A DNA stretch of 64,000 nucleotides, taken from positions 11,142,428-11,206,427 of the forward strand of contig OU452211.1 of the NCBI GenBank assembly GCA_911728435.2, read 5' to 3'. The notes beneath the pieces were generated by a model, which was not told where the DNA came from, did not search any database, and was given only the letters and a program-made list of their open reading frames with translations. Both the position numbers and the translations under genes were made by a program. This stretch comes from Apoderus coryli. Taxonomy: Eukaryota; Arthropoda; Insecta; Coleoptera; Attelabidae. Position 1 is the first letter of the stretch. Each line of letters opens with the position of its first letter. This document shows, piece after piece, positions 15,846-63,542 of this stretch.

Positions 15846-15849
15846 ACTC

Positions 15850-36100: not shown

Positions 36101-39100
36101 TGTTTTGACTGATTTAATAAACTTTTTATATTCGTGTCTTACGAGAATGTAATCTATTTGATTTCTTACTATATGTCCGTCTCGATCAGCAGGTGAACGC
36201 CAAGTGTATAAACGTCTTTTGTGGAGCTTGAAAAAAGTGTTGGCAATGCTTAGTCGTTGTTCTGAGCAAAACTGTGCAAGTCGCCCTACTAAATGCAAAT
36301 GTTATCGGATGCCGCGTTACCACTCTGGGCACAAAGAAATTAATTAAACCCAGCATGTACGAACAGTCAATGTTATTGTGTAACAATTTATACAAAAATT
36401 TCACAGCATATACTTGTCTTCTCTTAGCTAAGCTAGGTTCGTCAAATCTCAATAATAATAATAATGCCGCATGATCACATCCTCTCAGTGGATAAAAGCC
36501 ATCTAATCTGTAGGATAAATATTTTAAGAGCCTTCTTTGAACTGACTCAATGGCAGCAGAATGCAAAATCAAGCTTAGATCTGACATCGGCATAATACAA
36601 CAGTTTCACAGTATTGATATCGCTGAAATATCTATTTCGTATGATATATCCCAACATCCATGAAGCAGACGATACAACTTCATTCCTTTGAGAAACAAAA
36701 GTAAAATCACTATCAAAAATTATGACTAAATCTTTCACCTCACTGACTGACTCGATCAACTTTTTCACCCGCTAATACATAGTCGTACATTGTCGCGATT
36801 TTCAAGCGTGAGAAAGTGATAATTTTGCACTTAGAAATATTGAGTGGCAATCTATTTGCCGTACCCCACTCACAGAGTCTATCCATATTATGCTGGAGAG
36901 CCTGACATTCACTCTGTGTCCTGATATCTTGAAAAATTTTCAGATCATCGGCATAGGCAAGTTTGCTACAAACAAGTGACTCAATCAAGTCGTTTACGAT
37001 ATATTAAAGAGTAAAGGTCCCAAATTGGAACCCTGAGGCACTCCAGAAGACAAAACAAAAGTTTTGGATCTGTAACCACTATACTCCACAAATTGACTCC
37101 AACCAATCAAGTACGAACTAAATAAGTCAACAAGCCTATGATTGAATCCAAACTCCTTCAGCTTCAATATCAACAAATGATGATCAATCCTGTCAAAGGC
37201 TTTTTTAAAATCCGTATATAGCACATCAACTTGTCCAAGATTATCCAACGCTAAACAAACCTGCTCCGAAAGTACAGCCAAATTTGACACACACGAACGA
37301 CCAGACAGAAAGATTTTTAATTCCTGCACATACGAGTACTTTATCATAGATTACTATTTCAAAAACCTTTGAAAAGTTACACAATATGGAAATTGGTCTG
37401 TAGTTAGTAATATGTGAAGGATTTCCACTCTTAAACACTGGTGTAATTCTGGCAATCTTCCATCGGCTGGGACATGCTTGCTTAGAAATGACAAAAGCCT
37501 ATCCATAAAAATACTCAAAGACCTTTAACACAATAGATGCCAGAGCGAAAGGCCTTTTTTCTTGATTCCATTGATCAAGTAAGTCAGACGCTTGACTATT
37601 CTTTTCAGAACCGCTTCAGGAGATATTTGTCTAGCAATTCCTTTGTTCAGTTTTCTAAATAAAAACCTTTTAATTTCCTTAATTAGTAAAATATTAGGTA
37701 ACTAACATCTTACCCTTTAACTCGATTAAATGCTAAAATGCAGTTATCTTGTACCCTATCCACTTAACGATACATCTGTCTCTCCATATAATGATAGAAT
37801 ATGTTCGGTATTTCTAAAACTAAATTACCGGACAACGTATTTTCCATCTGAAGTAGGCAACAAGCAATAAAACTATCAATTTCCACACGTATACGAGAAG
37901 TAGCTGCTCCTAAAATCTGATTGGGGGTCGAAACTTAGTTGGATGTTTAATGGAAGCTGACCACCAGATATATGTGAGTGTATATATATCGGGGTATTAT
38001 AGGGTCCGCTCTGGCATTATCCAGGCGCTGCAATTTCGAGGAAAATTGCAAGTTGCTGCAAACAGTTTAATGTATTTTGGGAAACAGCCAATGGCGTAAC
38101 TACATGGATGATATCTATTTATAATATTCAAAAAATAAAGCAAAAAACTACGACAAATGTTGGTGTAAAATGGTAAAAACACTACCATCTGATATAAAAC
38201 GGTTTCCAATAGGGATGATATGATTTTGAAGCGACGTTGCGGCTATTTGTAATATGTCATGATCTGTCATTTGTCTGTCATTGTATTCAGTAGTGTTTAC
38301 AACTTCATCATGGAGAAATATACGCAATAACAACGTTTACAAATTATTCAGTTTTATTATCAAACTAATCGTTCTCCAATTCCAACTTTTCGTGCGCTTT
38401 TGCAATTTTATGATCGTCATAATCGTCCAAATGTGCTCGCTATTCGTCGAATTGTTGAAAATTTTGAGCGTACATTTTCTTTACATAATGTTCAAGTGCC
38501 AATAAGACAAAGAACCGCCCGAAGTCATGCAAATATTGCTGCCGTTCAGGCAAGTGTTGCTGAAGACCGCAATTTGTCGATTCCAAGACGTTCCCAACAA
38601 TTGGGACTGTCTCAAAGCACAACCTGGCGGATTTTGAGAAAGGATTTGGGTTTGCATCCGTATAAAATTGTTCTCACTCAAGAACTGAAGCCATTTGACC
38701 ACCGTAAACGTCGTGAATTTGCTGATTTTGCCTTGGAACAACTTCAAAACGATAACGATTTTCTTAAGAAAATCATTTTCTCCGATGAGGCACACTTTCA
38801 TCTGAGTGGTGTGGTAAATAAACAAGACTGTCGATTCTGGTGCGGAGAAAATCCACAAATTATTCATGAAAAACCATTACATTCACCTAAATTGACAGCG
38901 TGGTCTGGTGGAATCATCGGTCCGTACTTCTTTCGAAATGATGCTGGTAACACCGTTACTGTAAATGGAGAGCGGTATAGATCGATGATAACCAACTTTT
39001 TATGGCCAATTTTGGAAGAAGTTGATCTTAACAACATTTGGTTCCAGCAAGACGGGGCTACGTGCCACACAGCAAATGCAACAATTGAATTATTGCGAGA

Positions 39101-42100
39101 AAAGCTTGGAGTTTCGATTATTTCAAAAAATTGTGATATTGAATGGCCTCCAAGAACTTGTGATTTAACACCATTAGAGTATTTCTTGTGGGGTTATTTG
39201 AAGTCATTGATATACCAAACTCTCTTCAAGCTTTACAAGTCAATATTGAACGTGCCATTCATGACATACGACTTGATTTAGTGGAAAAAGTGCTCGAAAA
39301 TTGGGTTCATCGAATTCGTTCCTGCAGAAGAAGTCATGGAGACCATTTGAATGAAGTTTTATTTAGAACTTAATTGCATCGATTGTACTTCACACTCAAT
39401 AAAAAACGTTTGAATTTGCTTAACAATAAGTGTGTTTTTTTTAAAGAAATCATATCATCATATCATTTACTCTAACGAATGCCTCATACCCCATGGAGTT
39501 CCTTGATCCCATTTTATTTCTAATCTACATAAACGACATTTCATGTCTTGCAATAAGAGGTCAATTCACAGTATTTGCTGACGATACTACTATTCTATGG
39601 TCTCATAAAGACCCTGCTTCATTGACAACAATAGTAACAGAGGACCTGGTGGTGATTAAGAGGTGGTGTGACTCAAACCTTCTGTCCCTATATGTAAGCA
39701 TAACTAAATTAGTATGCTTTAAGTATTTGTGTCCAGCGCAGATGGGTTAGAGTTATAGCCAATGAACTTGGAGTGGAAACTGCAAGACTAGCATATTTTT
39801 CTCTTGTGGAGAGTCATCTGCGTTATGGGATTGCTTTCTGGGGATGCTGCAGTCAGTATCTGTTCAGCTCTGTGTTTGTTTTGCAGAAGAGAGCAGTAAG
39901 ATTTGTTTGTCGTAAAACTAACAGAGACACTTGTAGGCCTCTGTGAGACTTTAAGGATAATACCATTGTGTGGTCTTTTTATACTGGAAACGGCTTGCTT
40001 GATCTATAAAAAATTTGGTACTCAACTTGGATCTTTCAACAAACCTTATAATACCAGGCAGATGTTTGACATTCCAATGCCGATTCCTCAAACGGAATTA
40101 ACCAGGAATTCCCTAATTTATTTAAGCATAAAAATGTTTAACCATCTCCCTAATAATATTAAAATGAGGCCAAACTTGTTAAGTTTTAAAAGGTTGTTAA
40201 GTTTTAAAAGTAATTGTGTATTGGCTTTGTTATGCGTTTGTTTGTTCTGCCCATTGTAATTACTGTGATTTTGATTATTGTGTGATTATTGTTAGCATTT
40301 GTCTCGATGGAGCAAAGTTCGGATAATGTTTATCTAGTTGTTCTAGAATGCAAATACCTGCGAGCGTCCGCCACTGCTGATGGGATATGTTACAAAGGTT
40401 TCTGTGGTTGGCAGTTCTGGTTTAACATAGATAGAAACTTCCTACTACCCTTCATTACTTGTTAAAATTAGATAAATTTTCTGGACGCAATTTAAATATG
40501 GTCTCATCTGGTTAATTATAGTCCAAAATGGCAAAGTTGTAATTTAAATGGTTTAGAAATTTGCTGCTCCAAATTTGAATCATGTATATACAAAATAAAC
40601 TAGCTTTAATTGTAAATAATACGGAATACACAACTAATGACACAATTTTTAGATATTTAATTAACAGAGCAACTACAAATGAATATTAAACAAATAATTT
40701 AATGCAAAATCCAATTAACATGTGTCATATTATATTTTCAATTTTCTCTTTTAGGCTCTCCAACTCAAAGTCAATACTTGGGAAAGTTTCTCGGAAAACT
40801 TTCCGAACTACATCACGGAGTTTCTGGTGAAGTTTACGCAGTAGATGGCCGAACTTTACACATAAAAGACTTCACTTATGACGGACAAGGGCCAGGTAAT
40901 ACATTTTTAATTACATATCCAAATAATATTCCACGTAAATTTATTTATTCTTATAGCTGCATATTTTTACGCCAGCACATACAAAACAGCTGATAGTCGA
41001 GGGTTTCGACTGAGGGATGAGAACAATAACGGTGAAGTGATTAAACGGTATAGGAAAGAAGGAATCACATTAACCTTGCCAGAGGGAAAAACGCTGAACA
41101 ATATCAAGATATTTTATGTATGGTGCGAAGAATTTGATGTAAGTTCAAACCGATAAAAATTTAAGATATTTTAACATATTTACACATTTTTCTTTGCAGG
41201 TAAACTTTGGCGATGTAAAAATACCGCGCAACTTTGATCATCCGCGACCTCAAAAAATATCACCTTTGAATGGAGTTCATGCCATCTCATCTGACAACAT
41301 TGTGATAGTTGACGCACAAACTTTACTAATTCCGAACTTGAGCTATGACGGAGAAGCACCAGGTATGGGATATAATATAATATAATGCTTCTGGAAACTT
41401 TAGAGTTGAGATTCAGAAGGTGGATACAAATATGCACAAAACATAAGTGTATTTGAGTTATTTAATTTAATGTTTATTATGGCTCAAGATCCCAACTCGT
41501 TTCCCTTTCTCTTGAAATTGAATCTTCATTTTAAATTCTTTATCACACCTCTGCACTTGGTGATAGAAAGAGCAGCAAATGACACCATACGCAGCCTGTC
41601 TCGAGAGAGGGCTGCAGATCATCTGATCAAACACATCCGATCACTAGACGTCCCTAGTGACGAAACTAAGAAAAAATAGAACCTTCTGAAGAACTTCACT
41701 ACAAAGTTAAGTAGCAAGACGGACTGGGAAAGGAACTTAGCACCAGGAATCTTAAAGAAAACACATCAGAATGCTTTACAGACGGCTTAATGCTTGGCTG
41801 CTTTATAAGAGATGCAGTTGTTTGAGACGATGTGTGAGAACTCGCATTGTCGTGGTGAAGAGTGCTCCGTCTTCGGCGGTTGGTTCTCCTGATTTCTTGG
41901 AAGGCAACTGGCAAACATATGGTTGTGTACCACTCAGAATTGACTGTTCTGCGTTGTTCTAGTGGTACGGTTGCAGGCGACCATTTGCTTGGAAGTGCTT
42001 CGTGCGCGAACAACTTTGGTTGGATTTGGCTCATCTTGAAACACCCATACAGTCGACTGCTGTGTACTTTCGGGCTCATACGCGTAAATCCACGATTCAT

Positions 42101-51100: not shown

Positions 51101-54100
51101 AAAGAGGAATCTTTCACATTTTCCCAGAACACAAGACATTTTGAAGGTATTTATTGTTTTAAAAGCTAAAATCATCAAACACGTGAGGTTTGTTTTGAAA
51201 GGGGGAATAATCTGCGAATATTTCCCAACCCCCAAGTTCAAAACCCACTCCTAAGATCTTAAAAGGGATTAAGGAACAGTGGTACCTCATTTTATAGGAA
51301 TTTCTGTTTGAAAGCAGGCGGTGCTCCCGTAGAACTTTTAATGAATTACTTGTTCCAAAGGGTAAAATAAATCCACCAATGTGGAAAGGGGCTTTAAAAA
51401 CCATTCAAATCGATGAGTGACATTCGAGATTGCACAAGTGGTCGTAGCATCTTGCAAAGAGTATTTTTTAATACGTTGAAACAAATGTAGAAAAGTTGCT
51501 TGACAATGACATCATTGGCAAACGATAATTCTAATAAACCCATCGTAGCAATTCCTAAAAGGCCAGGAAAAATTCAACTCCTGATCGATTTTATATTTAT
51601 GTTTTCTTTTCGCAGGATAATGCGGATAGTATTCGATTACTAAACGCCGCAATGGTAAATGGATATTCCATTGTAACTTATCAACGACCTTTAAGAGCTG
51701 CCGACAAATTCGATCTGCAAATTTACACAAACCGTTCACAGGCGATAATTTGGGCTATTGGTCCTCTTAATCAACGCGATGAAGTTTCATTCCATAGCCA
51801 TTATCTCAAAAGTAAGCTTAATTACAACTTCAGGATTACATTATAGCTACAATAGACAAGAAGGATTCCCATTACGATACATTATAAAAGCCATGTCTGA
51901 ACGTTTTCTTTTTCATAAAATAGATTTTTGTATGCCTGGATATATCAAATCAAATATTATTGGAAGAAATCGATTCCACAAAAATTAAGTATCGCTTTGT
52001 TTCAGAGGATAGTTTCATTGAGTTTGGCCGACCAGCACACTGGAACTGTCCGCTTCCAGAAACCGAACCGATTACCATACGTAACATACAACAATCACAG
52101 ATCCAATCCACAGAGAGTACACAAGATATAAGCTCTTCCCAATCGGAAGCAGTGACGAGACCTGACAACCGTCAACGCAACAATGAACGAAGACGTGGTG
52201 GTAACCGAGGATCCACAAAACCACCAGTAACGGAACCAACACTGGTACAGTTCTCATAGAATAAACTAATTTATACTAATTCACGGAAATTTCTCACACC
52301 AACCGAAACCAATCCAACCCAACCCAACTTTTCGATACCACTTTTATAGAATTATGGCGGTTTATGACAGAGAAGTCGATGTTCAGTAGGCCCGTGTGGC
52401 TTCAAATTACGAACTGTTTGTTATGTCTATTCCAAAAATCAAACAATTATTTTATTAAATTTTAGGCTCTGATAGTTCAAAATGATTTAGAACTATTATA
52501 CCGGTTTACTTAATCCGACTATTTTAGGACGTTGATGATTCTGAGCGAAGTACGAGTAGTAATAGATCAAAACCCAGAAATCCGAACAGAGGAGTTCAAA
52601 GAGTTGAAAATAAAGGTGCAATTCAGAAGAAGAATGCTTGGAAAATTCCCCCAATACAATGTGATGAACCAGAAGATGGAGTATTTTATGCCCAAATGGG
52701 CCCAACTGGCGGTAAACATGGCTACCCAGCAATAACAGGTCTGTTTGTCTAGTGATAATTTCAGAAATAATTTTAACAAATACAATCATTTCAGGTCATG
52801 TTGGATGGGGTATATCATGGTACATAAATGGCTTGCTAATTCCGGAAATTCATGTAGTTAGAGGGAAAACCTACACGTTTGTTGTTGAAGGTGGTACAGA
52901 TCCTGAGGTATCGGCTAAATACCATCCATTCTATATAACTGATGATCCTGTGGGTGGATATGCCTACAAAACACCCGAAGAACGAGAAGTAAGTTTCATC
53001 AACATTATTTTATGTAGCCCAATCAATCACTTTGGCGCCAACTGCAGCTGCAAGCAGTAAACGATTTTGAAATTACAAGAACTAAGCCACACTTCATGTT
53101 GGTCTTAAGAACATCCTTGCTGCCTTTTCGTGAGCCGACCTTAAGCTGTGAATAGAGTTATTATCTCTTGACATGAGGATTACGTGGCCAGTCCATCGCA
53201 GCTGTGCACCTCAATGCTAGTTGTTTCAGCTTCCTCCAGAACGCTGATGTTTCTTCTTCTTAGGACGCCGTCTCCCTACGAAGGTTGGCGATCCAAATGG
53301 CTATTGTTGTGCGGGAAACCGCAGCTCTGAAAATTTCTATGGACGTCTGTCCGAACCATCTGCGTAAGTCCCTCAGCCATGAATTTTGTCTACGGCCGAC
53401 TGACCGTTTTCCTTCGATCTTTCCCTCTGTTATCAGGCGTAGAATCTCATATCGTTCGCCTCTCATGATATGTCCTAGGTACTGCAGCTTTCTCTCCTTG
53501 ATTGTCGTGAGGAGTTCTTTGTGTTTACCCATTTGCTGCATAACCTCTATGTTTGTCTTATGTGCCGTCGAAGAAACTCGCAGCATTCGTCTGTAGGTTG
53601 CATCAATGGTCCAGCTCTCACATCCGTATAGAAGGACAGGGAAGATGTAGCAGCGAAGTAATCTAATCCGGAGGTCCAGGCTGAGGTCCCGGTTTGCCAG
53701 AAGTGTCCTCATGTTATTCAGAATTTTCCGTGCTTGCGCAATTCTTGATCTAATTTCAGTCTTTGAGTCGCATTGCTGGCTGACGAGTACCCCCAAGTAT
53801 TTTATAGATGACACTTGTGTAATGTGCTCTCCGTTGATCATTAGAGTAACGGGTTTTGGTGATTTTGAGAATACCATCAGTTTGGTCTTGGATGTATTCA
53901 TATAAAGCCCAAAGTTCTCACTATACTCCACAATAAGGTTCATAAGGGATTGAAGTTCTGTTATACTGCTGGCTATTACGACGGTATCATCTGCGTATCC
54001 AAGGTTACTTATATTGATTCCATTGATCTTTATGCCTGCAGTTGAATTTTCGAGAGCTTCGATGAATATTGCCTCAGAGTAGAGATTAAACAGTAGTGGG

Positions 54101-56921
54101 GACAGTACACAACCTTGTCGCACGCCCCTTCTTATTGCTATTTCTTCTGATGTGGACCCTTCGATTTTGACTGTTGCTGTTTGGTGCCAATAAAGTTCAG
54201 TAATGATCCTTAGATCTTGAGCATCGATCCCGGTTGATTTTAGGATGTTGATCATTTTTTGATGTGACACACAATCAAAAGCTTTTTTATAATCAATAAA
54301 GCACGCGAATACATCGACGTTCATGTCCCTACAGTCAGCACATTCAAAGAGAAAAGAGCCTCTCGGGTACCCGTTCCATTCCTAAAGCCAAATTGCGAGC
54401 GATCAATTACGGACTCACACTTTTTGTATATGCGGTTATGAATGATCCGCAAGAATATCTTCAAGGCGTGGGACATCAAACTGATAATGCGGTATTCGTC
54501 ACATTGTGATGCCTTTTTCTTCTTTGGCAAAGTAACAAAGGTGGATCTCAGCCAGTCTGTGGGTATTTTTCCGCCTCTGTACATTCGGTTAAATACAGTA
54601 GTAATGAGATTTAGACCAACCCCGTCCTCGGCAGCTGCAAGTTTAAATGTTTCCGCATGCACGTTGTCAGGACCAACTGCTCTTCTGTTCTTTTGTAGTT
54701 TAATTGCATGTTTGACCTCTTCTTTTGTAATTTCAGGAGCCCTTTCGTTGATTTCGTATATATCAGGGGGTGAGTCTGGTCTCATGTCATTAAAGAGATT
54801 TTCGGTATATTCTTTCCACCTTTTTAGTTTCTCATCTACTCCTATAAGAATTTCATTGTTGGAGCCCCTTAATATTTCACTATGACCTCTCCGCTGCCTG
54901 CCTGTAAGCTCTTTGATATTCCTGTGTAAGTTAAAGAGATCGTGCTTCTTCTGAAGTATTTCTATTTCCGTGCTGATGTTTGGTCCTCTCATTTACGAAT
55001 TACCACAATATTTGGTGCAGGCTGGTAGGGATTTGTGTTTTCTTTATATTTAGTTGAAGACCGATACTCCTGTATGTGCTGCTTTGATATTATCGTGAAG
55101 GAGTCGAATTATCCGGATGAATTTCTGGGGACATCCGTTGAGCTTCAATATCCTCAACAGAGTCGACAAGGACAAGGAGTTGACAAGGTCTATAAAACCC
55201 ATGTATAGAGGACGTAAACTCATTTATAAGCACGCATACACTGTATTGCAGATTTTCAAACGTGCCGTGTTATTGCGTAATAGCATGTGACCTCACGTGA
55301 CGTGATAATAGTCTGTCTACGCCTTAAGACGTGCCGAAAACGTAAATTTGCAAGAACAAAATTATGCAGTGACGTCTAACTTGGCTTGAGCTACATGAGG
55401 TGAACGTAGTCTGTATGTAGTTTGGTTTTTAACACTTCTGAGTTTCTTCAGGAAGTTCAAATATTTGCTGGAGTTACAACAAGTAATGATGGAACCGTCG
55501 AACCAACTGGAACTGGACGGTTATGCCACTGGACCCACACAAGTGATATGGATGCAGATGATTTTGAATCATTTGGAGCTTACCAACGTACTTTAGAATT
55601 GAAATGTGATCAAGGCGAACCAGGAGTCATTCAATGGACACCAGATAAAGATACACCAGACACTGTTTACTATCAAGTAAGAATAATATAAATTTGTAAC
55701 CAAAAATTCACTGACATACAATTTTTTTAGTGTTTTACTCATCGCCATTTGGGTTGGAAAATCCATGTCCATGACGACTGCGATGAATCCACAGCTGCTA
55801 GCGAATATCACCTAGCAATAGCTGAATCACCAAGTGCGGACATCGAAGGCAGTGATTTAGTTGAATCACAATCTATTCAAGTGGAGACTAGGGTAAAATT
55901 AAACCATTACACAACAATTGACGAAACCAATACATTAAAACATCTTTCAGAACACACAAAACCAATCCAACTAGACAATAATAAGACAAAACAAAGGCAA
56001 CCGGTAGTACAAAGAGGACGAAACCTTCACAATACGTCACGGACTAACCCACAAAGGAATATAAAGACTACAGACCAAATTCTTTCAAAACCACCAAAGG
56101 GACAAAAATTCTTTACAAAACAAATTCAAACACAACCCTATACAAATTTACACACAACTAAACGCTCAATCAAGGTTGAAATTTCTCCAGAACAAGCTTC
56201 CACAGAAAAAGAACCAGACACATTACTATACAACTCAGGCATTATTCCATTAATCGAATTGTATTCTATATCTCAATCAGAGAAGAACCTGAATGACGAC
56301 ATAGAAGCTGATATTGAAGTAGAAGGCCAACTTGGAGTTATAAAAATCAGCAATGAAAGAAAGTTAAGCTTGAAAACAAGGAGTTTGGTCGAAGAACCAA
56401 TTGCAGCAGCTGCAGAAAAAATTAATTCCTACTACCTCCCACCCCCAACAGCTTCAAGACCAATCGAAAAACATAGCAGCAACATTGATATTGAACCTCC
56501 ACTTAATGTTGATTTAGCGGTATCTCCACCAGATACAGTAGTGACATACGATGGGAAAAAAGTATCTGGCGCAAGTCTTACAGCAAAACCATTTGAGAAG
56601 TCGAATATTTTCGAACAAAAACTATCACAATCTATGCGGGGGAAGCCCCAGTACGTCCCTTATAAAGGTGAATTACCTCCGTTAGATGCGGTTTACACAA
56701 ACAGTAAGAATGTACCGCAGTACAAAAAGGGAAAGAGTTTGAATAGAGGGTTGGATGTGCCCCAGGAAACTACGAAATTGCGGAGAGTTAGGCGACATCA
56801 TACTCCGCAACATATTGCGGAACAGCAAAAGAACAGCGAGATAAGTGCAGCGGATTTACCTAGTTTTAAACCTTATTTTAGTATACTAATGGTTGCTTTT
56901 GTATTTTTAATTTATTTGTAA
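30085..56921 (+). CDS. Skeletor: Skeletor (Knickkopf3) gene, full-length form, 13 coding exons
   Basis: The exons listed separately join in consistent phase to 1105 codons plus stop. Order: signal peptide (residues 1-17); two DM13 domains (about 23-130 and 145-250); a DOMON domain (about 266-425); a linker rich in Ser, Gln and Arg; a conserved cupredoxin-like region (about 555-730, with GHVGWGISWYINGLLIPE and CFTHRHLGWKIHVHD); then ~370 residues of polar, low-complexity tail closing in a hydrophobic run (YFSILMVAFVFLIYL). Drosophila Skeletor is known as a spindle-matrix protein. The beetle orthologue Knk3 acts in cuticle organisation, and the family resembles GPI-anchored Knickkopf. Signal peptide plus hydrophobic C-terminus favour secretion and a membrane or GPI anchor here (inference). 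Intron 1 (10.6 kb) and the introns at 46-51 and 53-55 kb are swollen by transposons, but no exon is disrupted. Confidence 0.93.
30134..31260. other. Skeletor intron 1, first part
   Basis: AT-rich non-coding sequence. Short frames such as 30,312-30,623 on the complement have no recognisable domain. Confidence 0.5.
31430..33283 (+). pseudogene. Jockey/CR1-like non-LTR reverse transcriptase in Skeletor intron 1
   Basis: This is the best-preserved RT domain of its type here. The main frame (31,430-32,890) holds 'KAKFTSGPDGIPSFVIRDC', 'NYRPISIQSCFSKVFE', 'QHGFFPGRSTSTNLL', 'VIYTDFSKAFDRLDH', 'SSGVPQGSVLGPLLFL', 'SLLYADDFKVYS' (YADD intact), 'KDLGVWFDGQLSFTNH' and 'FVRSKLEYASVVWNPMY'. One frameshift near 32,820 separates the last 120 codons (32,827-33,189). 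The 3' UTR ends in (AAAT)n at about 33,258-33,283. There is no endonuclease domain, so it is a 5'-truncated copy. Relics of the linker may extend upstream to about 31,260. Compared with the damaged copies at 11.6 and 36.3 kb it is young. Confidence 0.92.
33284..34320. other. Skeletor intron 1, stretch without recognised features
   Basis: AT-rich, no coding frame of note. Confidence 0.5.
34325..34435 (-). pseudogene. RT scrap of a different element fused to the RTE copy
   Basis: The complement reads 'YSQLVASLDAGGRPVGIFCD' then 'LKRAFDCV', a palm motif A segment (GIFCDLSRAFDCV) of an unrelated non-LTR family. It continues the open frame of the RTE-like copy beyond the point (about 34,435) where that copy stops matching its relative at 53,750. 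Confidence 0.75.
34436..36285 (-). pseudogene. RTE-like endonuclease/reverse transcriptase, long open copy
   Basis: On the complement it starts inside the endonuclease ('NQIDYILVRHEYKKFIKSVK', 'GADINSDHNAVVMDI', with the SDH catalytic motif). It continues through a linker into RT: 'VGPDNVHAETFKL', 'CDEYRMISLMSHALKIFLRI', 'RSQFGFRNGTG', 'VFACFIDYKKAFDCVSHQKM', 'IRRGVRQGCVLSPLLFNLYS', then 'NLRYAYDTVV'. The last is the YADD catalytic box changed to YAYD, which should abolish activity. The frame stays open for over 600 codons, so the copy is young. It lacks the N-terminal endonuclease half and the C-terminal third that its relative at 53,250-54,985 retains. Confidence 0.92.
36290..37630 (-). pseudogene. 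Jockey/CR1-like reverse transcriptase, multiply broken
   Basis: Blocks on the complement, in order: 'HITNYRPISILCNFSKVFEI' (37,420-37,340), 'VDVLYTDFKKAFDRIDHHLL', 'SSGVPQGSNLGPLLF' (to 36,994), 'SKLAYADDLKIFQD' and 'LPLNISKCKIITF' (36,988-36,780), and a thumb part 'QRRLLKYLSYRLDGFYPLRG' (36,560-36,470). Frames change at least four times. The C-terminal end abuts the RTE copy at about 36,285, so that copy and this one form a back-to-back cluster on one strand. Confidence 0.87.
38214..39459 (+). mobile_element. Tc1/mariner-superfamily element in Skeletor intron 1
   Basis: GATGATATGATTT at 38,214-38,226 is matched by its exact complement AAATCATATCATC at 39,447-39,459, either side of the transposase remnant. 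They are short but suitably placed to be the inner part of TIRs. The exact element ends and TSD cannot be fixed by eye. Confidence 0.6.
38310..39373 (+). pseudogene. Tc1/mariner-superfamily transposase, nearly intact
   Basis: Same family as the copy at 3.6 kb, but with AT-rich codons and little protein similarity outside the motifs. ATG at 38,310 opens MEKYTQ, then a TAA (38,328-38,330) interrupts. The same frame continues to 39,281 with the HTH region ('LGLSQSTTWRILRKDLGLHP'), 'IIFSDEAHFHLSGVVNKQDC', 'IWFQQDGATCHTANATIELL' and 'CDLTPLEYFLWGYLKS'. The catalytic Asp triad is present, with 36 residues between the second and third. A single frameshift near 39,205 moves the C-terminus ('NSLQALQVNIERAIHDIRLD') into another frame ending at 39,373. 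Two lesions in all suggest a fairly recent death. Confidence 0.92.
39490..40259 (+). pseudogene. CR1-like RT C-terminal remnant
   Basis: 'DPILFLIYINDI' and 'FTVFADDTTILWSHK' (FADD box) start the remnant at 39,493. After deletions come 'LVESHLRYGIAFWGCC' (about 39,808) and 'VLQKRAVRFVCR' (about 39,880). From 39,903 an open frame runs through 'YNTRQMFDIPMPIPQTELTR' and 'NSLIYLSIKMFNHLPNNIK' to a stop at 40,257-40,259. Everything before the palm is missing. Confidence 0.82.
40755..40895 (+). CDS. Skeletor: Skeletor exon 2 (first DM13, N-terminal part)
   Basis: CTTTTAG acceptor; reads 'QYLGKFLGKLSELHHGVSGE' and 'VYAVDGRTLHIKDFTYDGQG', the opening of a DM13 domain; donor GGTAATAC, phase 1. Confidence 0.93.
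40957..41138 (+). CDS. Skeletor: Skeletor exon 3 (first DM13, C-terminal part)
   Basis: TTATAG acceptor after an intron of only 61 bases; reads 'AYFYAST', 'RLRDENNNGEVIKRYRKEGI' and 'TLTLPEGKTLNNIKIFYVWC', completing DM13; donor GTAAGTTC, phase 0. Confidence 0.92.
41200..41362 (+). CDS. Skeletor: Skeletor exon 4 (start of second DM13)
   Basis: TTTGCAG acceptor after a 61-base intron; reads 'VNFGDVKIPRNFDHPRPQKI' and 'GVHAISSDNIVIVDAQTLLI', ending in 'SYDGEAP'; donor GGTATGGG, phase 1. Confidence 0.93.
41470..41785 (+). other. Unrecognised coding-like remnant in Skeletor intron 4
   Basis: An open frame (41,470-41,679) and its continuation past a TAG to about 41,783 give a basic, helix-like protein: 'RAANDTIRSLSRERAADHLI', 'KLSSKTDWERNLAPGILKKT'. 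Composition looks coding rather than random. I do not recognise the family. It directly precedes a mariner fragment and is probably part of a mobile element or a processed copy of some gene. Confidence 0.4.
41790..42160 (-). pseudogene. Mariner (SETMAR-like) transposase fragment, second copy
   Basis: On the complement: 'MSPKVHSSRLYGCFKMSQ' region in one frame, then 'TVPLEQRRTVNSEWYTTICL' and 'TLHHDNASSHTSSQTT' (second catalytic Asp in HHDN). Bases 41,870-42,150 share near-identity with 21,200-21,480, except that a stretch of about 25 bases present there (between GGTTGC and GGCGACC) is missing here. It retains the middle of the catalytic domain that the first copy lacks. Both ends are truncated. 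Confidence 0.85.
42629..42888 (+). CDS. Skeletor: Skeletor exon 5 (second DM13)
   Basis: CTTTTAG acceptor; 'DAKFWVGKGSKPSPQGVRVP', 'RRYDRKTVVLTLPGDLTVFD', 'FGIWCEEFTVDFGHIQIPQP' complete the second DM13; ends 'GVSPQ' at donor GTAAGTGT, phase 0. From here transcripts can go to either of two exons. Confidence 0.93.
43278..43796 (+). CDS. Skeletor: Skeletor alternative terminal exon (short DM13-only isoform)
   Basis: The acceptor ATTACAG is in phase 0 with exon 5. The 172 codons that follow are rich in Gln, Asn, Tyr, Pro and His ('QQPHFVSFQHYNNLQPSQNP', 'PHHHNRFDLGHQHNYNLYG') and stop at TAG 43,794-43,796. Joined to exons 1-5 this makes 437 residues: signal peptide, two DM13 domains and a Q/N-rich tail. 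Drosophila Skeletor and beetle Knk3 are both known to make short 5' isoforms as well as long ones. An AATAAA lies 166 bases after the stop. If this exon were instead kept inside the long mRNA, that mRNA would be bicistronic, as reported for fly Skeletor. Confidence 0.85.
   Translation, partial: KQYSSPIYNQSEQVTSDQRHHSTSSSGGHLPATTYRPAIYRPALLQRRIDPQQPHFVSFQHYNNLQPSQNPPPQQGFPLQNNGFYHQQIYQPVLNNYQRTTSNGIPANTVQQHSDISASQSNNRYQLNNNNNLLIYNQFAAQQYQQNQLAQSLPHHHNRFDLGHQHNYNLYG
43962..43967 (+). terminator. Polyadenylation signal for short Skeletor isoform
   Basis: AATAAA 166 bases after the TAG of the alternative terminal exon. Confidence 0.6.
43968..45446. other. Skeletor intron, no gene recognised
   Basis: AT-rich and without coding frames of note. 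It may include further 3' UTR of the short isoform. Confidence 0.5.
45447..45842. repeat. Very long near-perfect inverted repeat (~396 bp)
   Basis: The two halves mirror each other around about 45,637. Matching marks are GAGACGTTTAGACTGAAAG/CTTTCAGTCGAAACGTCTC at the outer ends, CAAGTCATGTGGTCAATAAC, TACAATAGTAAAACTTACCAC, AACAAAACATTCACATTAAT, an A13/T15 run, and GACTTGCATGGTTATACAAT at the centre. The right half has ~15 extra bases (around 45,745-45,759) and at least one substitution, so it is not an exact mirror. No ORF. It could be a foldback/MITE-type element or a head-to-head duplication. Confidence 0.95.
46063..46162 (+). CDS. Skeletor: Skeletor exon 6 (start of DOMON)
   Basis: TTTTTTACAG acceptor, phase 0 with exon 5; reads 'SKLNCEVLSDDLAFEIRWAV' and 'IVLQLVAKL', the first strands of the DOMON domain; donor GGTAAGTA, phase 1. 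Confidence 0.92.
46596..46752. repeat. Direct repeat, copy A
   Basis: Shares near-identity with 47,567-47,710 (TTTTTTAGAAGAT...CTCAATCGTAAGTACAAG, then GATTAGGACGATCTCTGAAT and AGGAAAAACTTAGTTGCAGT). The RNase H-type fragment lies between the copies. Confidence 0.88.
46755..47600 (-). pseudogene. RNase H domain and C-terminus of a non-LTR retrotransposon
   Basis: On the complement: 'MMSDSQAALKALRSYTF' (RNase H strand with the SDSQAA Asp), 'KLAWECKQTLKQLAAQGKKI', 'TLTWVPGHEG' (the VPGH box), a frame change, 'ADQLAKEGASAPFCGPEPIF', 'YWRNTPGLRQSKRFI', 'KLIQLERSDLR', 'ITGLFTGHHPVKYHLKKMGL' and 'ALCECMAFF', ending at a stop near 46,836 and a decayed 3' UTR. The polymerase domain is absent. Same type as 29,244-29,732. 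A 63-bp piece at 47,503-47,565 recurs at 47,771-47,833. Confidence 0.87.
47567..47710. repeat. Direct repeat, copy B
   Basis: See copy A at 46,596. This copy lacks a short stretch (AATACGGTTGACATCAGCTA...) found in copy A. Confidence 0.88.
47940..48172 (+). pseudogene. RT fragment
   Basis: 'CHRSTATNLTLICQEISEVL' and 'DRGGRTDITKAFDRMDHGIL' show an RT fingers-palm segment with a small deletion before 'TKAFDRMDH'. It then jumps to 'LKSYLRDRV', where the TIR element begins at 48,173. Confidence 0.75.
48173..49838. mobile_element. Non-autonomous TIR element rich in TTTATAAAA-type motifs
   Basis: Left end CCCAACTAACAATT (48,173-48,186) is mirrored by AATTGCTAGTTGGG (49,825-49,838): 14-bp TIRs with one mismatch. 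TC lies on both outer sides, a possible 2-bp TSD. The first ~350 and last ~280 bases are packed with variants of TTTATAAAA, GTTTTATAAC and AACGTTTATAAA in both orientations. The 1-kb interior has no recognisable protein. Its left end cuts an RT fragment, so it inserted into, or was captured with, that sequence. Confidence 0.75.
49839..50895. other. Skeletor intron 6, remainder
   Basis: Non-coding. I see no recognisable element up to the TTTACAG acceptor of exon 7. Confidence 0.5.
50896..51080 (+). CDS. Skeletor: Skeletor exon 7 (DOMON core)
   Basis: TTACAG acceptor; 'AREYMSFGLSGDDSRSVMIG', 'GDVVVAWVDKQTLKGYAQDY', 'CSGPTGSCPDNRLE'; donor GTAAAA, phase 0. The 'DVVVAWVD...YAQDY' stretch is the hallmark of the DOMON fold in this family. 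Confidence 0.94.
51616..51811 (+). CDS. Skeletor: Skeletor exon 8 (end of DOMON)
   Basis: TTTTCGCAG acceptor; 'DNADSIRLLNAAMVNGYSIV', 'TYQRPLRAADKFDLQIYTNR', 'WAIGPLNQRDEVSFHSHYLK'; donor AGTAAGCT, phase 1. Confidence 0.94.
52006..52226 (+). CDS. Skeletor: Skeletor exon 9 (linker), alternative 3' ends
   Basis: TTTGTTTCAG acceptor; 'DSFIEFGRPAHWNCPLPETE' then a Ser/Gln/Arg-rich linker. Two donors are in the right phase for exon 10: GTAACG at 52,227 and GTACAG at 52,245, the second adding six residues. If neither is used, translation ends at TAG 52,257-52,259. Confidence 0.85.
52528..52738 (+). CDS. Skeletor: Skeletor exon 10
   Basis: TATTTTAG acceptor; a charged linker 'DVDDSERSTSSNRSKPRNPN', then conserved 'IPPIQCDEPEDGVFYAQMGP' and 'TGGKHGYPAIT'; donor GGTCTGTT, phase 1 (a weak but GT-containing donor). 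Confidence 0.9.
52795..52988 (+). CDS. Skeletor: Skeletor exon 11 (cupredoxin-like region)
   Basis: ATTTCAG acceptor; 'GHVGWGISWYINGLLIPEIH', 'VVRGKTYTFVVEGGTDPEVS', 'KYHPFYITDDPVGGY'; donor GTAAGTTT, phase 0. This is among the most conserved parts of Skeletor. Confidence 0.95.
53085..53235 (-). pseudogene. RT C-terminal scrap in Skeletor intron 11
   Basis: The complement reads 'LRWTGHVILMSRDNNSIHSL' and 'EKAARMFLR', the 'LRWAGHV' box found near the C-terminus of RTE/CR1-like ORFs. It is adjacent to, but separate from, the RTE copy that follows. Confidence 0.65.
53250..54985 (-). pseudogene. RTE-like reverse transcriptase, second copy, in Skeletor intron 11
   Basis: Two long frames on the complement (54,992-54,321 and 54,324-53,260) are split by a short deletion/frameshift near 54,330 ('SLNVLT...MNVDVFACF'). 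They carry the same RT as the copy at 34.4-36.3 kb, here with an intact 'NLGYADDTVV' catalytic box. The C-terminal region that the other copy lost is present: 'PVLLYGCESWTIDATYRRML', 'LQYLGHIMRGERYEILRLIT' and 'SWLRDLRRWFGQTSIEIFRA'. The 3' end has an AAGAAGAAGAAA tail (complement of 53,250-53,262). The endonuclease is missing, so it is a 5'-truncated copy. In aligned parts the two copies differ at only scattered bases. Confidence 0.93.
55000..55200 (-). pseudogene. RTE-type RT fragment of another subfamily
   Basis: The complement reads 'LVNSLSLSTLLRILKLNGCP', then 'QKFIRIIRLLHDNIKAAHTG', the 'LWKILxKxGCPxKFIRIIRLLHD' segment of RTE-like RTs. It directly abuts the 5' edge of the RTE copy and is strongly decayed. 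Confidence 0.7.
55452..55676 (+). CDS. Skeletor: Skeletor exon 12
   Basis: TTTCTTCAG acceptor; 'EVQIFAGVTTSNDGTVEPTG', 'GRLCHWTHT', 'FGAYQRTLELKCDQGEPGVI', 'WTPDKDTPDTVYYQ'; donor GTAAGAAT, phase 0. Confidence 0.95.
55731..56921 (+). CDS. Skeletor: Skeletor exon 13 (terminal, long polar tail)
   Basis: ATTTTTTTAG acceptor after a 54-base intron; starts 'CFTHRHLGWKIHVHDDCDES', ending the cupredoxin-like region. It is followed by ~370 residues rich in Lys, Ser, Thr, Glu and Pro with no known domain, a basic 'RRVRRHH' site, and a hydrophobic C-terminus (YFSILMVAFVFLIYL) after small residues (SAAD), as in GPI-anchor signals. The frame is open throughout. In fly Skeletor a comparable tail is reached by stop-codon readthrough; no internal stop needs to be read through here. 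Confidence 0.93.
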   Translation, partial: CFTHRHLGWKIHVHDDCDESTAASEYHLAIAESPSADIEGSDLVESQSIQVETRVKLNHYTTIDETNTLKHLSEHTKPIQLDNNKTKQRQPVVQRGRNLHNTSRTNPQRNIKTTDQILSKPPKGQKFFTKQIQTQPYTNLHTTKRSIKVEISPEQASTEKEPDTLLYNSGIIPLIELYSISQSEKNLNDDIEADIEVEGQLGVIKISNERKLSLKTRSLVEEPIAAAAEKINSYYLPPPTASRPIEKHSSNIDIEPPLNVDLAVSPPDTVVTYDGKKVSGASLTAKPFEKSNIFEQKLSQSMRGKPQYVPYKGELPPLDAVYTNSKNVPQYKKGKSLNRGLDVPQETTKLRRVRRHHTPQHIAEQQKNSEISAADLPSFKPYFSILMVAFVFLIYL

Positions 56922-59562
56922 AACAAATGTAATTAATAAGTTTATATTTAATAATATTAAGTATTTGTTATTTCTATTCAATCCTATACCCAAATGTAAA
57001 TAAGGTGGAACCTTAGTAATGTAACTTGTTTTACAGTCACAGTCATAAATAATTAAAACGTTAATAAGTGTGTGTTCAGACAAAACACAACTATCTTAAT
57101 ATACGAATTTAACTAGCAAATAACACAAAAATATCTCAAATAATAATTTAGTTCAGTTACTTACTTGTTTATATCGCTTCCAATAGTACGGACGACAGAG
57201 AAGAAAGTGGTGTTATTAACCTCACGTTCAGAGAAATTTCTTCAACCAAAACTGAAAGTGGATAACGGGAAGAACATCCATGTTATGCTGGATTAGAAAA
57301 TAATAAAACAAAATGGATAATTATAAAAAAAAGAGATAAGGTAGAGCAGGTACTTACCCGTCCTAATCTGTGTTCTTTTTTATCTAGCACAGAGAGGATT
57401 AAGTATGCTGGGTCTTTTTCTACTACTCTCAAACTACTCGGTCTTTTATACTACACAGAAGCAAAGATTATTGTGTACATTAATCTTTACCAGAAGGCTT
57501 CAAAACTGTAAGAAATACTCTGGTAAACACCTATTCCAAATATGGTCATATAGCAGTTAATTGGTGCAAATAATCGCGGAATCTACATCAAGTAGCCATG
57601 GAAAAAATATAACAAAACTAAAAATCCCTGAATAAGGAAATCGCTTTGACTAGGAAATTCCTAGTCAAAGGGAAATCGTATGAAAATTAATATTAAATTA
57701 GTACCTTACGAAGTTTTTATTAAACATAAAACTATTTGTACTAAACACAAATTCAAATATTTTAAATCATAAATTTCGCCATCTCCCAGATACAGCTGAT
57801 GAAATAAAAAGAAGAGCTTAATATTTTATTCATGCGTACTCGCTGAACCACTTGCTACTGGAGGCCAAGCTTGAAGAGGAAGAGAGAGAGACATATGAAA
57901 GAAATGTATAAAAATCACTGCACATTTTAATAACTGTTGGCTGAAATAGAACTTGGAAACGCCAAATCTATGGTATATTAATAGATAACCTGTTACACCT
58001 CAGCTGAACTAATGCAACATTATAACCTGCCACTCACTTCACATACATTTTTGTGGTAAAAGTTACAACAAACTGTCAACTTATAGTTGACCCATAGAAC
58101 ATATTATTGGGGACGGGTTTCTCACTTACCAGTCAATTTAAAAGGAATGTGCAAATAATTGAGCTGATATTTGGCGTAAAGGAAAACGCCTAATGGTAGA
58201 TCACAAAATAAAAACAGATGGATAAAGCTAACCTTTAATAAGGTTGAGCGATCCCGTGAATTTTCAATCAGCCACACCGAGGAAGAAGAAGAAGAAGAAT
58301 TTTCGATCACAGTGTGATTACTGTGATTTTTTCATATTCCATTTACGCAACAGTAATTTGTAAATGTATATTATCTACGAAGTACAGTTTAGAGTTTGTT
58401 AATTTAAACTTTAATTCCAATTTTGTTTTATTATTGGTAAAAAAACCTGATACCGAATTATTATTTATAAAATTATTATTTAGGTTAACAGATACATGCC
58501 ATTATTAAAGGATTGTTATTTGGCCCGTAAGGTGGAGGCCACATCGAGAAGAGAGAGAAAGGGTTGTCATTTATCATAACCTCATTTTTCTCATAGTACA
58601 AAAACACATACCATGCATTTTTCTGAAGCGTTGATTCTCAATTAACTGAATTTACTCATTTAGTTTTGATCTCTGCATTCACAACAATGTGATATAAGAT
58701 ATGTAATTAATATTTGCATCTAAAACGCCTTTTTAATTGTTTTTGCTACTGATATAACCAGGTATTCTTTTATATTGTTACCTTTTAAGCTGATGATGGG
58801 ATTTGAAACTCCGACACATGTCCCTATAATTAAAAACAAGTTTTTTGTAATAAATTGGTGGAGACGAGGTGTGTTTTTTGCATTGTAATTGAAGTTATTG
58901 ATATCCCAGATTAATAATAAGAAAAAAACACTCCCAAACAACCGGTTGTATGCATTATTATTTTATATTAAAAATAATAATTCAAATACTCTATTATATT
59001 ATACACTACCATTTTCTTTAAACACAATGATACTACGTTTAGCACTTTCTGTAGTTCTGTGCGCTGGTCTCCCTATGTTTTAATATGCTTCAAATATAAA
59101 CCCCAAGAGCCGTTTTTTGCAATAACCAGAGAGCCCAGTAATCCGTTTAATCAGCCTCTAAATAGTATCTCTTCTTATTTATAAATACAAACAACGCACC
59201 AAAACCCATCTGTCAAACACCAGTGCCCCGAAAGTTTCGTCGATCGACAACTCATCAGAGAAGCTGTCTCAATAAATGTGGAATAAAAGAATCAATATTC
59301 AATGAATTTAAATTTATTTCTTATATCAATTATAGATTAGGTAATTATTATGCATTATTTCTTAAGATATTTTCAAATAAATTTTGTATATACGTTTACT
59401 TCAATGACAGAGGTTAACACAACATTAAAACATTAATACCAAAGTACTAGGAGCGATTACAAAGTATTTCTTACCATGATATGAAGATTACTCTAACCAT
59501 ATTTTTAAGAAAAGTAACTGAAATATGTATTTTATAACAAATCTCAAATGAGATACATTATA
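56922..59562. other. 3' UTR of Skeletor and spacer
   Basis: No canonical AATAAA right after the stop; ATTAATAAG at 56,933 may serve. Short frames (58,122-58,310; 58,720-58,941) have no recognisable domains. A (GAA)n stretch lies at about 58,281-58,300. Confidence 0.5.
57644..57670. repeat. Perfect 27-base palindrome
   Basis: CTTTGACTAGGAA-A-TTCCTAGTCAAAG: 13-base arms with a single central base. Confidence 0.9.
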
Positions 59563-59590
59563 TCTGTGGCTTGGTCGAAAAAGGGCCTAT
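59563..59590 (+). repeat. Left terminal inverted repeat (28 bp)
   Basis: Begins TCTGTGGCTTGGTCGAAAAA and ends GGGCCTAT. Exact complement at 63,178-63,205. Confidence 0.95.
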
Positions 59591-60060
59591 GTACAAAATT
59601 GCCAAAATTGAGTTAGTGGGCCTATCTTACTAAATGAAACATTCTCTTTCCAATAAAAATGGTCCCAAGTGAATAAATCTAATAGTTGTCGATTTAGCCG
59701 ATTCGAAAAGGGCCCACGTGTGAGGGCCAATGTACAAACTGAAAAACGTAAAGTCCCATGTACGTGTTAGGCCTTTTTATATGGTCCTATGTCCAGACAG
59801 ATTGGTAATTTATAAACATAGAACAGCCTAAGTGACCAATAGACATAAAAAATATGGGCCTATGTGATCTTAGGTCTTTTTAGTATTTTCTTTTATTTGT
59901 ATTTTTTTGGGCCCAACTGCCACTTATTAAAAGTATATTTAAATCTATGGGCCTATGTGAACTTTGGCCGTTTTATTATTCAATAAATACACTTGAAAAA
60001 GGCTCAAGTGCAACATAGAGGTCCAGTTGGTACTTAGGCCTTAGCGCATGTGACGGCAAA
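59579..60060 (+). repeat. Left subterminal motif cluster
   Basis: Repeated variants of GGGCCTATGTG within ~480 bases: at about 59,582, 59,621, 59,706, 59,720, 59,777, 59,856, 59,909, 59,948 and 60,041. Half-variants read GGTCCTATGT, GGTCCCAAGTG and GGCTCAAGTG. Almost all point in the + direction. Plausibly transposase binding sites (inference). Confidence 0.8.
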
Positions 60061-60291
60061 TACTATCATAACCTCAAAATTTGTTTTAACTAACAGTTTG
60101 TTGCAAGTAGTAAGGTGTTTGTTTTTTTTTATACATTTTTAGTTTGTTTAGCTGTATGTTTTTGTTCGAGGTAAGTTTTATTAACTTTTAATCTTCTAAA
60201 GAATGTATATATGTAGTTATATCTAATAACAATATAATATTATTGAGGCTACTATTTTCGTAGCACATGCAAACATACACTTAGAGTCAGA

Positions 60292-62695
60292 ATGTCTTTA
60301 AGCAATGGGAATTCTTGCCAATCACGTAGCCAGAGAATTATAGGCTTAGCCCTGGAAAATAAATATCCACCGGAACATTTTAATAAAATAAATGACAATA
60401 AAACTATACCAGTAGTAAGTTAATGAAACAAACGCTCCTAGTACATATTATTAATAAAAATCGTATTTATAGGAAATACCAAATATCATGCCCTCTCATG
60501 AAAATAGCGTATTGAAGGAAGCTACCAATACCGATAATATTGAGATTACGATTTTGGAAAACGTTGTTTTTGAAGTGAGTTTTTATCTTCGCATTTATTT
60601 GTTGTACATAGCTTGTAAAAGTATGCCCAACATTAAAAGAATGAAATACAAAAATCTAATAATTCCAGGAACCACATTATGATTTTGTTAACGAGCAATT
60701 TGTATCAATCAAGATCAACAAGTACATGAGTCTATTGATGAACAAAAAATGGAAAATGTAAGTTACTGATTTAAGGAAAGTGCCTATAAATTACAGATTT
60801 GAAATAACTGCAGGATGAAACAGACACCATTGGCGACATAAGCGATCCTTTTGCAACAGACTCAGATACCTCTTATAGGACAGAAAGTCAAAACGAAACC
60901 AGCGAATCGGAAAAAGAAACACGAAAAGGGAAAATAAAGTCAAGGAAACGAGTAAGAAATGAGTCACTATGGCAAATAAATAAAATAAAGATTGCAAGAG
61001 CAAGTGGTCAAGAATATAAAACAAAGAAAAATAAAATTGTCAAAGCAAAAAGGTTAAAAGAACCATGTATATGCAGAAAAAAGTGTTACGAGAAATTTAG
61101 CAATGAGGAAAGGTTGAATCTGTTTCAAGAATTTTATGATTTGAACTATAATGAACAAACTCAACTTTTATCAACTTTAGTTAGGGAATTTGAAAAGCTT
61201 CGACGCACTAAACGTGAAGAAAACAGCAGAAGAGTATTTAGTCGTATGTATACGTTAAAGAAAGAAGGTTTGCCTGTAGAAGTTTGTAAATTAATGTTTA
61301 TGAATACTCTGGATGTAAGTCTTAAAAGACTACGATATACGATTGAGAAGTGTCGGCTTTCTACAAGCGGGATATGTACATCAGACAAAAGAGGAAAACA
61401 CGGAAATCACCCTAAAATAGCAGAAGAAGATAAAAATATTGTAATTCAGCACATTTCTAAATTTCCAGCTTATAAGAGTCATTATTCTCGATCGCATTCT
61501 GAAAAACGTTACCTATCACCTGATTTAGGCATTCAACAGATGTATAGGCTTTATGTAGATTATTGTAAAGAAATCTACAAAACTCCAGTATCTGACCACT
61601 TTTACCGAAACATTTTTGTGTCAAATTTCAACCTTTCGTTTCATCCACCACATAACGACACGTGCAGCAAGTGCGACAAGTTAAACATTTTGATAAAAGC
61701 CACTACTGATGAAGGACAAAAAATTGATTACGAACGCGAAAAATCAGAACATTTAAATGCCGCAGAGAGAGCCTACAATGAAAAAAGGATTGACAAAGAA
61801 AGAAGTAAACAGGATGCAACTGTAGTAACGGCAATGTTCGACTTGCAAAAGTGTTTACCGACTCCTCATCTAAAAAGTGGAATCGCATTTTATAAAAGGC
61901 AGTTGTGGGTTTTTAACCTAACAATCTACGAGGTTTCAAGCGCCAATGAAAATAAATCCTTTTGTTTTATGTGGGACGAAACCACTTCAAATCGTGGAGG
62001 GCAAGAAATTGCTTCATGTCTCCTTAAGTATATAAAAAACTTGCCTCCAGGTACAAGTTATCTAAATTTATATAGCGATTGCTGCTCAGGGCAAAATAAA
62101 AACATTTATGTCACTACTCTACTGTCCAAGGTTTTTGAATTTTTGCCACCAAACCACAATTTAAAAGAAATTCATCACAAATTCCTAATCTCCGGTCATA
62201 CTCATTTGGAAGCAGATTCAATTCATGCTTCGATTGAAAAAGCAAAGAAGTAGTATTCAGCGAAAAGGAGGAATTAACGTAATTGACATGTCTCAGGATG
62301 ATTTTTACAATATAAGTGCTCTTCAGAAAGCGTGTTTTGTGAATAGAAAGAAAAACGCAGACGGCGAACAAATGTCTTTTTTAAAAGCCAACCATTTCCT
62401 TTGCACCAAAGACAATCCTGGCAAAATTTTTTACAAGGAAAGCTTCAAAGAGAGAGAGTTCAAAGTCTGGGATATCCTAAAAAAGAAAAAAGCACAAGCA
62501 GGGGAAGGACTACCAACTTTGGAAATACTAAATAATTCATACCCTCTGCCTATTGCAAAAAAAAAATTGGACGACATTAAAAGTTTAATACATCCAAATT
62601 GTCGAGTTTTTTATAGCCATCTTAAACCACAAGAAAGCACTATCGACGAAGATGAAGAAGTGTGCCCTATAGGTACCTTAGAATATGACGAATAA
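60292..62695 (+). pseudogene. Multi-exon transposase (DUF7869-like), two frameshifts
   Basis: Exons by splice signals: 60,292-60,414 (MSLSNGNSCQSRSQ; donor GTAAGT), 60,473-60,574 (EIPNIMPSHENS; donor GTGAGT), about 60,669-60,757 (donor GTAAGT) and 60,814-62,695. The third exon does not keep frame: 'EPHYDFVNEQ' at its start and 'VHESIDEQKMEN' at its end lie in different frames, implying a one-base lesion. The large exon has an acidic head, a basic stretch, a Cys cluster 'CICRKKCYEKFSNEERL', 'CSKCDKLN', then an RNase-H-like core: 'AMFDLQKCLPTPHL', 'CFMWDETTSNRGGQE', 'YSDCCSGQNKN', 'KFLISGHTHLEADSIH'. Candidate catalytic Asp residues are in FDLQ, SDCCSGQN and EADS. A second frameshift at ~62,235-62,253 puts the last ~140 residues ('FYNISALQKACFVNRKKNAD') in another frame ending TAA at 62,695. 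A 5' non-coding exon may end at GAG|GTAAGT (60,170). Confidence 0.85.
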
Positions 62696-62879
62696 CGTTG
62701 TTTGTTTTGAATTTGTTGCCATTTTGAAATTAAAAGTTTAGTTCCTATTATTAAAAGTTAAAACTGTCATTAATACTTATGTAACTTTAAATAAATGTTA
62801 AGGGTATGACCAATTTCCTTAAAGTGTTTTATTTATATTAAAACTAAAAAATAAAGCATAATCCTCAAAATGTTTAATA

Positions 62880-63003
62880 GTCAAAAAGGGCCCAAGTTTT
62901 TCCCTTTCTAAAAATGGGGCTTAAGTAACGATTTTGAGGGCTTATGTGAATGTCAGATTTAGGGCCTTTGTGAGTTGGGCCAAAAGTGTAGGGGCCCAAC
63001 TAA
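62880..63003 (+). repeat. Right subterminal motif cluster
   Basis: AAAAGGGCCCAAGT (62,885), GGGGCTTAAGT (62,925), GAGGGCTTATGTGA (62,938), TAGGGCCTTTGTGA (62,960), TTGGGCCAAAAGTG (62,976), GGGGCCCAACT (62,990): the same motif family as at the left end and in the same orientation, not mirrored. Confidence 0.8.
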
Positions 63004-63177
63004 CAAAAATGTGTTAATAAATAGAACCATCCACAAATTATTAATATCATTACAATTATTACATTTCTAATAACATGCTGGCCAAATTTTATATAATTCG
63101 GATGAAGTGTTTTTACTCAACGAATTTATTTTAAAAATGTACAAATGCTTGATTATCTCGAAACTTGATTTCGGTAG

Positions 63178-63205
63178 ATAGGCCCTTTTTCGACCAAGCC
63201 ACAGA
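63178..63205 (-). repeat. Right terminal inverted repeat (28 bp)
   Basis: Exact complement of the left TIR, ending CCAAGCCACAGA. Confidence 0.95.
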
Positions 63206-63299
63206 TATTCTCTTAAATAAAAATTAAATGTCAAGAATTAAATTGCCTCAACTTTTAAATCCCCCTGTAGCATACTCTCTCACTAATATACCTCTGTAA

Positions 63300-63513
63300 T
63301 TACTCCTTAGTACTACCACTATCTCCATTTTCTTTTGGCGCCGATCTTGATCTAGACCGTGACCTTGATTTCTTCTCATGACTTACGGACCGTGATCTGG
63401 ACCGTTTTGCTGATGCAGATCTGGATTTCTGCTGGGATCGGCTACGAGAACGTGAACGGCTCCTAGAACGGCTGCGACGATCCTTGGAACGGCTTCTGGA
63501 TCGACTGCGTGAT
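63300..63513 (-). CDS. SR-family splicing factor, last exon (RS domain)
   Basis: On the complement, after a CATCCCCAG acceptor, the frame encodes unbroken Arg-Ser dipeptides ('SRSRSRSRSKDRRSRSRS', 'SAKRSRSRSVSHEKKSRS') and ends 'NGDSGSTKE' at TAA 63,300-63,302. Such an RS domain at the C-terminus is diagnostic of SR proteins, which bind pre-mRNA through upstream RRMs and guide splice-site choice in the nucleus. The RRM exons are not in the window and must lie beyond 64,000. The upstream ATG-containing stretch (63,514-63,542) is probably intron; an alternative acceptor CTCTCAG at ~63,533 would add a few residues. The transposon ends only 95 bases past the stop. Confidence 0.8.
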
Positions 63514-63542
63514 CTGGGGATGCATTTAAATGCTGAGAGCAA

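Follow-up and report, generated by a model that had tools for sequence, protein, structure and literature searches.

A damaged copy of a recently active DNA transposon family with a DUF7869 transposase, probably of the Sola superfamily, in the beetle Apoderus coryli

A 64,000-nucleotide stretch of the Apoderus coryli genome (assembly GCA_911728435.2, contig OU452211.1, positions 11,142,428 to 11,206,427), here called the window, was found to contain a DNA transposon of 3,641 bp on the plus strand at 59564..63204. These preferred boundaries come from the comparison of seven copies. We consider it highly probable that this element belongs to a cut-and-paste family that was active recently and is itself a broken copy, that the DUF7869 protein of the family is a transposase with three catalytic aspartates (DDD), and that the family most likely belongs to the Sola superfamily, Sola2 group. 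There is strong support for the broader statement that the element is a DNA transposon whose transposase is of the DDE/D type.

The element is bounded by 27-bp terminal inverted repeats (TIRs), at 59564..59590 on the plus strand and 63178..63204 on the minus strand, which are identical to each other. ATAT stands on both outer sides, as an earlier note on this DNA had reported; under the preferred boundaries the copies at 59560..59563 and 63205..63208 are the target-site duplication. With ATAT included, the inverted ends agree over 35 nt at 97%, and their identical core is 31 nt with ATAT and 27 nt without it. The earlier note's identical 28-bp TIRs are therefore real, with the length holding only if the neighbouring T/A is counted, which moves the boundaries to 59,563-63,205.

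Transposase matches were searched for in 428,062,225 bases of the genome on 129 contigs. At least 91 were found (89 of 1,005 candidates were scored). Seven copies, including that of the window, encode protein 99-100% identical to the window's, share both ends (7/7) and sit at different places with different flanks. Their lengths are 3,641-3,727 bp, and copy pairs differ by 0.24-0.71% of their DNA over 3.6-3.7 kb, so the family has spread recently. Each copy has equal direct repeats on its two sides: ATAT in four, AATT in two and ATTT in one. Since ATTT is not palindromic, these 4 bp represent a direct repeat rather than an extension of the inverted one.

A genome search with the end sequences gave matches at 31 places for the left-end 137 bp and 36 places for the right-end 150 bp. 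In both sets the full copies account for seven places, and a few others represent the second end of an element counted before. Shorter, non-autonomous derivatives were also seen. Both ends were present in four of seven left-end fragments examined, which are 721-1,241 bp long, and in fragments L031-L033 the opposite end lies outside the retrieved stretch. Three of the four two-ended derivatives have exact 4-bp repeats (ATTT, ATAT and AGTT). The earlier note had held that its reading would fail if no other genomic copies shared these ends, and such copies do exist.

The duplication was then followed in 20 further stretches. Sorted by score and open frame, they comprise eight other DUF7869 families, represented by 19 copies, and one singleton (L028). 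Each of the 19 copies has paired ends and, next to them, an exact 4-bp repeat. The end finder required such a repeat in the two E885 copies, and the remaining ends were placed with the flanks visible. These and the seven copies of the window's family make 26 exact repeats: 12 ATAT, five AATT, five AAAT, three ATTT and one GTAT. For 25 more copies (20 A645 and five B760), only the ends were retrieved, at sites forecast from transposase matches. Every forecast site carries both ends, and 24 of the 25 have an exact 4-bp repeat (15 AATT, six ATAT and one each of ATTT, AACT and ACAT). In total, the 4-bp target-site duplication is exact in 50/51 two-ended copies, compared with a chance agreement of 0.6% for pairs of random 4-mers in the window. 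The targets are AWWT (W, A or T) in 47/51, the exceptions being GTAT, AACT, ACAT and one unequal pair, while AWWT occupies 5.4% of positions in the window. The target rule is constant among DUF7869 families and the end sequences vary. One family has 20 rows sharing a 260.1-bit score, each with a 645-residue open frame, and two of its copies are 0.03% apart.

Two boundary models fit these ends: 59,564-63,204 with a 4-bp duplication, or 59,563-63,205 with a 2-bp duplication inside an A..T target. Almost all targets are A-N-N-T, so a T precedes and an A trails each element, and an element ending in T..A with a 2-bp duplication can also be read. We prefer the 4-bp duplication as more likely because the young copy L027 has GTAT on either side, which speaks against the 2-bp model, and because the Sola papers state 4 bp.

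The window protein matches PF25273 (DUF7869) with an E-value of 3.8e-7 and 29.8-30.3 bits, above the cut-off of 26. The match spans residues 378-476 only, and Pfam gives the function as unknown. Here the Pfam entry is tied to transposon ends. The family membership claimed by the earlier note is thus borne out, as are its motifs SDCCSGQNKN and GHTHLEADSIH and its Cys clusters: the motifs and the Cys/His positions are conserved. Three aspartates are proposed as catalytic. D344 (codon 61840..61842, plus strand) is D in 71/71 sequences, D423 (62077..62079, plus strand), in YSDCCSGQNKN, in 68/69, and D469 (62215..62217, plus strand), in GHTHLEAD, in 71/71. One copy of the window's family, L006, has Asn in place of D344, and its last-exon frame is nonetheless open. 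Zinc-ligand-like residues suggest that the protein may have zinc sites.

Structure prediction, which the earlier note had proposed as a check, gave an RNase H-like core with retroviral integrases as the best match. Mariner transposase cores were also among the structural matches. A second model, of protein P0019, again matched integrase and mariner, with a lower Z (10.1). The likeness to retroviral integrases extends to the first and third triad positions, which agree by range. In contrast to these enzymes, the window protein is encoded by an element that is not a retroelement, and the PDB held no match by sequence, nor by profile at E 10. BFVD had no match at 0.001, and no relative was confirmed in viral and genome contig collections. 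Among the protein matches listed, the top one, at 76% identity, belongs to the bean weevil Acanthoscelides obtectus. Separately, the record of the DUF7869 protein P0154 adds an integrase core (rve, PF00665) at the C-terminus, which could be a fusion or a prediction artefact.

Comparison of copies supports a multi-exon gene, in agreement with the earlier note. On the plus strand, exon 1 (60292..60414) begins MSLSNGNS and has the donor GTAAGT; exon 2 (60473..60574) has the acceptor TTATAG and the donor GTGAGT; exon 3 (60669..60757) has the acceptor TTCCAG and the donor GTAAGT; and exon 4 (60814..62695) encodes the zinc-ligand-like residues, the RNase H-like DDD core and the C-terminal region. 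The three introns, at 60,415-60,472, 60,575-60,668 and 60,758-60,813, are GT-AG. In copy L005 the four-exon frame is open for 751 residues; models with fewer introns, in which exon 2 or 3 is skipped, are likewise open. Apart from this gene, no further long open frame was noticed in the element. Spliced transposase genes are ordinary among eukaryotes, and we do not keep the earlier description of this one as unusual.

The gene of the window copy is damaged. Compared with the majority of the seven copies, it is short by 22, 1, 50, 9 and 2 bp near 60,019, 60,701, 62,249, 62,589 and 62,771, respectively. The 1-bp deletion in exon 3, near 60701, and the 50-bp deletion, placed by copy comparison at 62249..62251 (plus strand), shift and break the frame. 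Exon 4 is open only up to 62250 and then resumes in a different frame. A last-exon frame of 648 residues is open in L005, L006 and L007 and broken in L001-L004. At 62,250 we considered a programmed frameshift or a tiny intron and rejected both: the majority of the seven copies have 50 extra bases at this point, and in the beetle protein P0001 there are 17 extra residues. The window copy is no longer able to produce a whole transposase. The earlier claim of structural completeness therefore stands for the ends and fails for the gene. Because its ends are whole, the window copy might still be moved in trans.

The subterminal repeats that had been noted are also present. Sixteen matches to GGGCCTATGTG, with up to three mismatches, lie in the non-coding DNA between the TIRs and the gene. 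Thirteen are on the plus strand: nine on the left (59618..59959; starts at 59618, 59661, 59710, 59724, 59783, 59824, 59856, 59909 and 59949) and four on the right (62888..62972; starts at 62888, 62917, 62938 and 62962). Two controls were used, mononucleotide shuffling and the remainder of the window: 300 shuffles gave a mean of 0.87 matches and a maximum of 5, and the other 59,559 bases of the window hold 59. The inner part of the left TIR, at 59583, is itself a repeat of this type, and for this reason the subterminal repeats are probably transposase-binding sites. The repeats at the left and right ends share one direction, contrary to a simple mirror arrangement.

These features can be arranged into a cut-and-paste pathway. 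The N-terminal part of the transposase would bind the inverted ends and the subterminal repeats. D344, D423 and D469 would hold the metal ions, and the ends would be cut. The cut ends would then be joined to an AWWT target with a 4-bp stagger, and gap repair would produce the target duplication.

Assignment to Sola is based on the anatomy of the element. A passage in PMC10741241 describes Sola elements as having a DDD transposase, a 4-bp duplication, TIRs of 11-1124 bp and a length mostly of 2-9 kb. The window's family has the DDD triad, the 4-bp duplication, TIRs of 27 bp and lengths within that range. Dictyostelid Sola2 elements, in the portion of PMC3627910 that treats them, use AWWT targets, have TIRs of 12-21 bp and carry Fanzor1. 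The targets seen here (ATAT, AAAT, ATTT), the TIRs and the length of 3-4 kb resemble Sola2; the 27-bp TIRs differ from the dictyostelid ones. Since the fold, the DDD triad and the AWWT 4-bp repeats suit a described superfamily, the earlier suggestion of an undescribed mobile system is not upheld. The link between DUF7869 and transposons was not found in the literature searched, in which no paper mentioned DUF7869 and none tied it to Sola; Repbase may well contain such elements. Papers containing GQNKN or GQNRN included none on transposases, judged by title, and PMC10045372 does not mention Sola. Neither Sola nor transposase occurs as a protein name among the matches listed by three protein searches (the best 120 of 158, the 77, and the best 120 of 902).

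Several observations weigh against this reading. The Sola2 name derives from the anatomy of the element. TM-scores of the whole model are low, about 0.2, and the coincidence of D344 and D469 with the integrase triad was judged by alignment ranges only. The 2-bp duplication with a T..A-ended element is, like the 4-bp model, compatible with 49/51 two-ended copies. The fourth two-ended derivative, the old L029, has TAAT on one side and AAAT on the other, which would suit the 2-bp model or a mutation. One of the 25 added copies, starting L054, has unequal AAAT and AATA. The end finder found no paired ends for the singleton L028, and the end motif of the window's family is absent from L008, which was checked for that family's ends only.

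One alternative is that DUF7869 elements are a separate DDD superfamily whose Sola-like target repeat arose independently or through distant kinship. They would then form a large, hardly described DDD group of insects (and at least Hydra) that is still amplifying and stands apart from Sola; its target, mostly AWWT, would be a strictly palindromic A-N-N-T, and its end sequences would be many and different. No sequence link to a Sola protein emerged here, DUF7869 is the only Pfam family matched by more than one of the 72 family members (60/72), and the lack of papers on DUF7869 in the literature searched fits as well. However, the DDD triad, the 4-bp AWWT repeat, the TIRs and the length all match described Sola/Sola2 elements. 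Hydra also has both Sola-2, in the section of PMC12220107 concerned, and a DUF7869 relative (P0150), a weak point given that Hydra has many superfamilies. We regard a separate superfamily as unlikely, and think the same of so large a group standing apart from Sola.

Membership in another TIR superfamily (Chapaev, hAT, P, MuDR, Kolobok, Dada, mariner or piggyBac) appears quite improbable. All of these have TIRs and a DDE/D core, and mariner cores are among the structural matches, but the target repeats differ. Tc1/mariner duplicates TA, according to the part of PMC10741241 that covers it, and piggyBac targets TTAA, according to an extract of PMC7351741, whereas none of the 51 copies has TA or TTAA repeats. 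Compared with Tc1/mariner (Mos1), the window's family has AWWT 4-bp repeats, a DDD triad whose last two aspartates are separated by 45 residues, and extra zinc-ligand-like residues. Between their second and third acidic residues, hAT, P, MuDR, Kolobok and Dada have a C/DxxH motif (as given in a passage of PMC9587614). The window protein, the one protein scanned for this motif, lacks it in residues 423-469. DUF1280, to which an excerpt of PMC3985635 ties Chapaev, was matched by 0/72 members at 0.01. A host gene, domesticated or ordinary, lying by chance between inverted repeats would account for the deposited names of the listed relatives, which are uncharacterized, unnamed, hypothetical or DUF7869, with two enzyme names. 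Seven near-identical copies with shared ends, their own 4-bp repeats and differing places and flanks, and the many transposase matches in one genome, leave this idea almost no credence.

Other parts of the window were also surveyed. An Arg/Ser-repeat-rich open frame on the minus strand (63300-63542), SR splicing factor-like by eye, ends about 90 bp past the element's right repeat and has no Pfam match at 1e-3. An RVT_1 reverse transcriptase domain occurs in four open frames (17413-18081, 31430-32890, 34331-36298 and 53260-54324), and the window is rich in retrotransposons; by eye, 34331-36298 and 53260-54992 resemble two copies of one element. The frames at 3598-4486 and 38400-39281 are presumably fragments of mariner/Tc-like transposases, judged by eye, and neither of the two has a Pfam match at 1e-3. 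Tandem arrays lie at 1000-2321, 7879-8470 and 15845-16784, with units of 258, 280 and 314 bp.

These results reveal no new mechanism. DUF7869, a Pfam family of unknown function, gains a likely job as a transposase, and transposon ends, a target rule and near-identical copies are now available. The "uncharacterized" and "DUF7869 domain-containing" proteins deposited from many insects appear to be transposases; masking them, and not counting them as host genes, is advisable.
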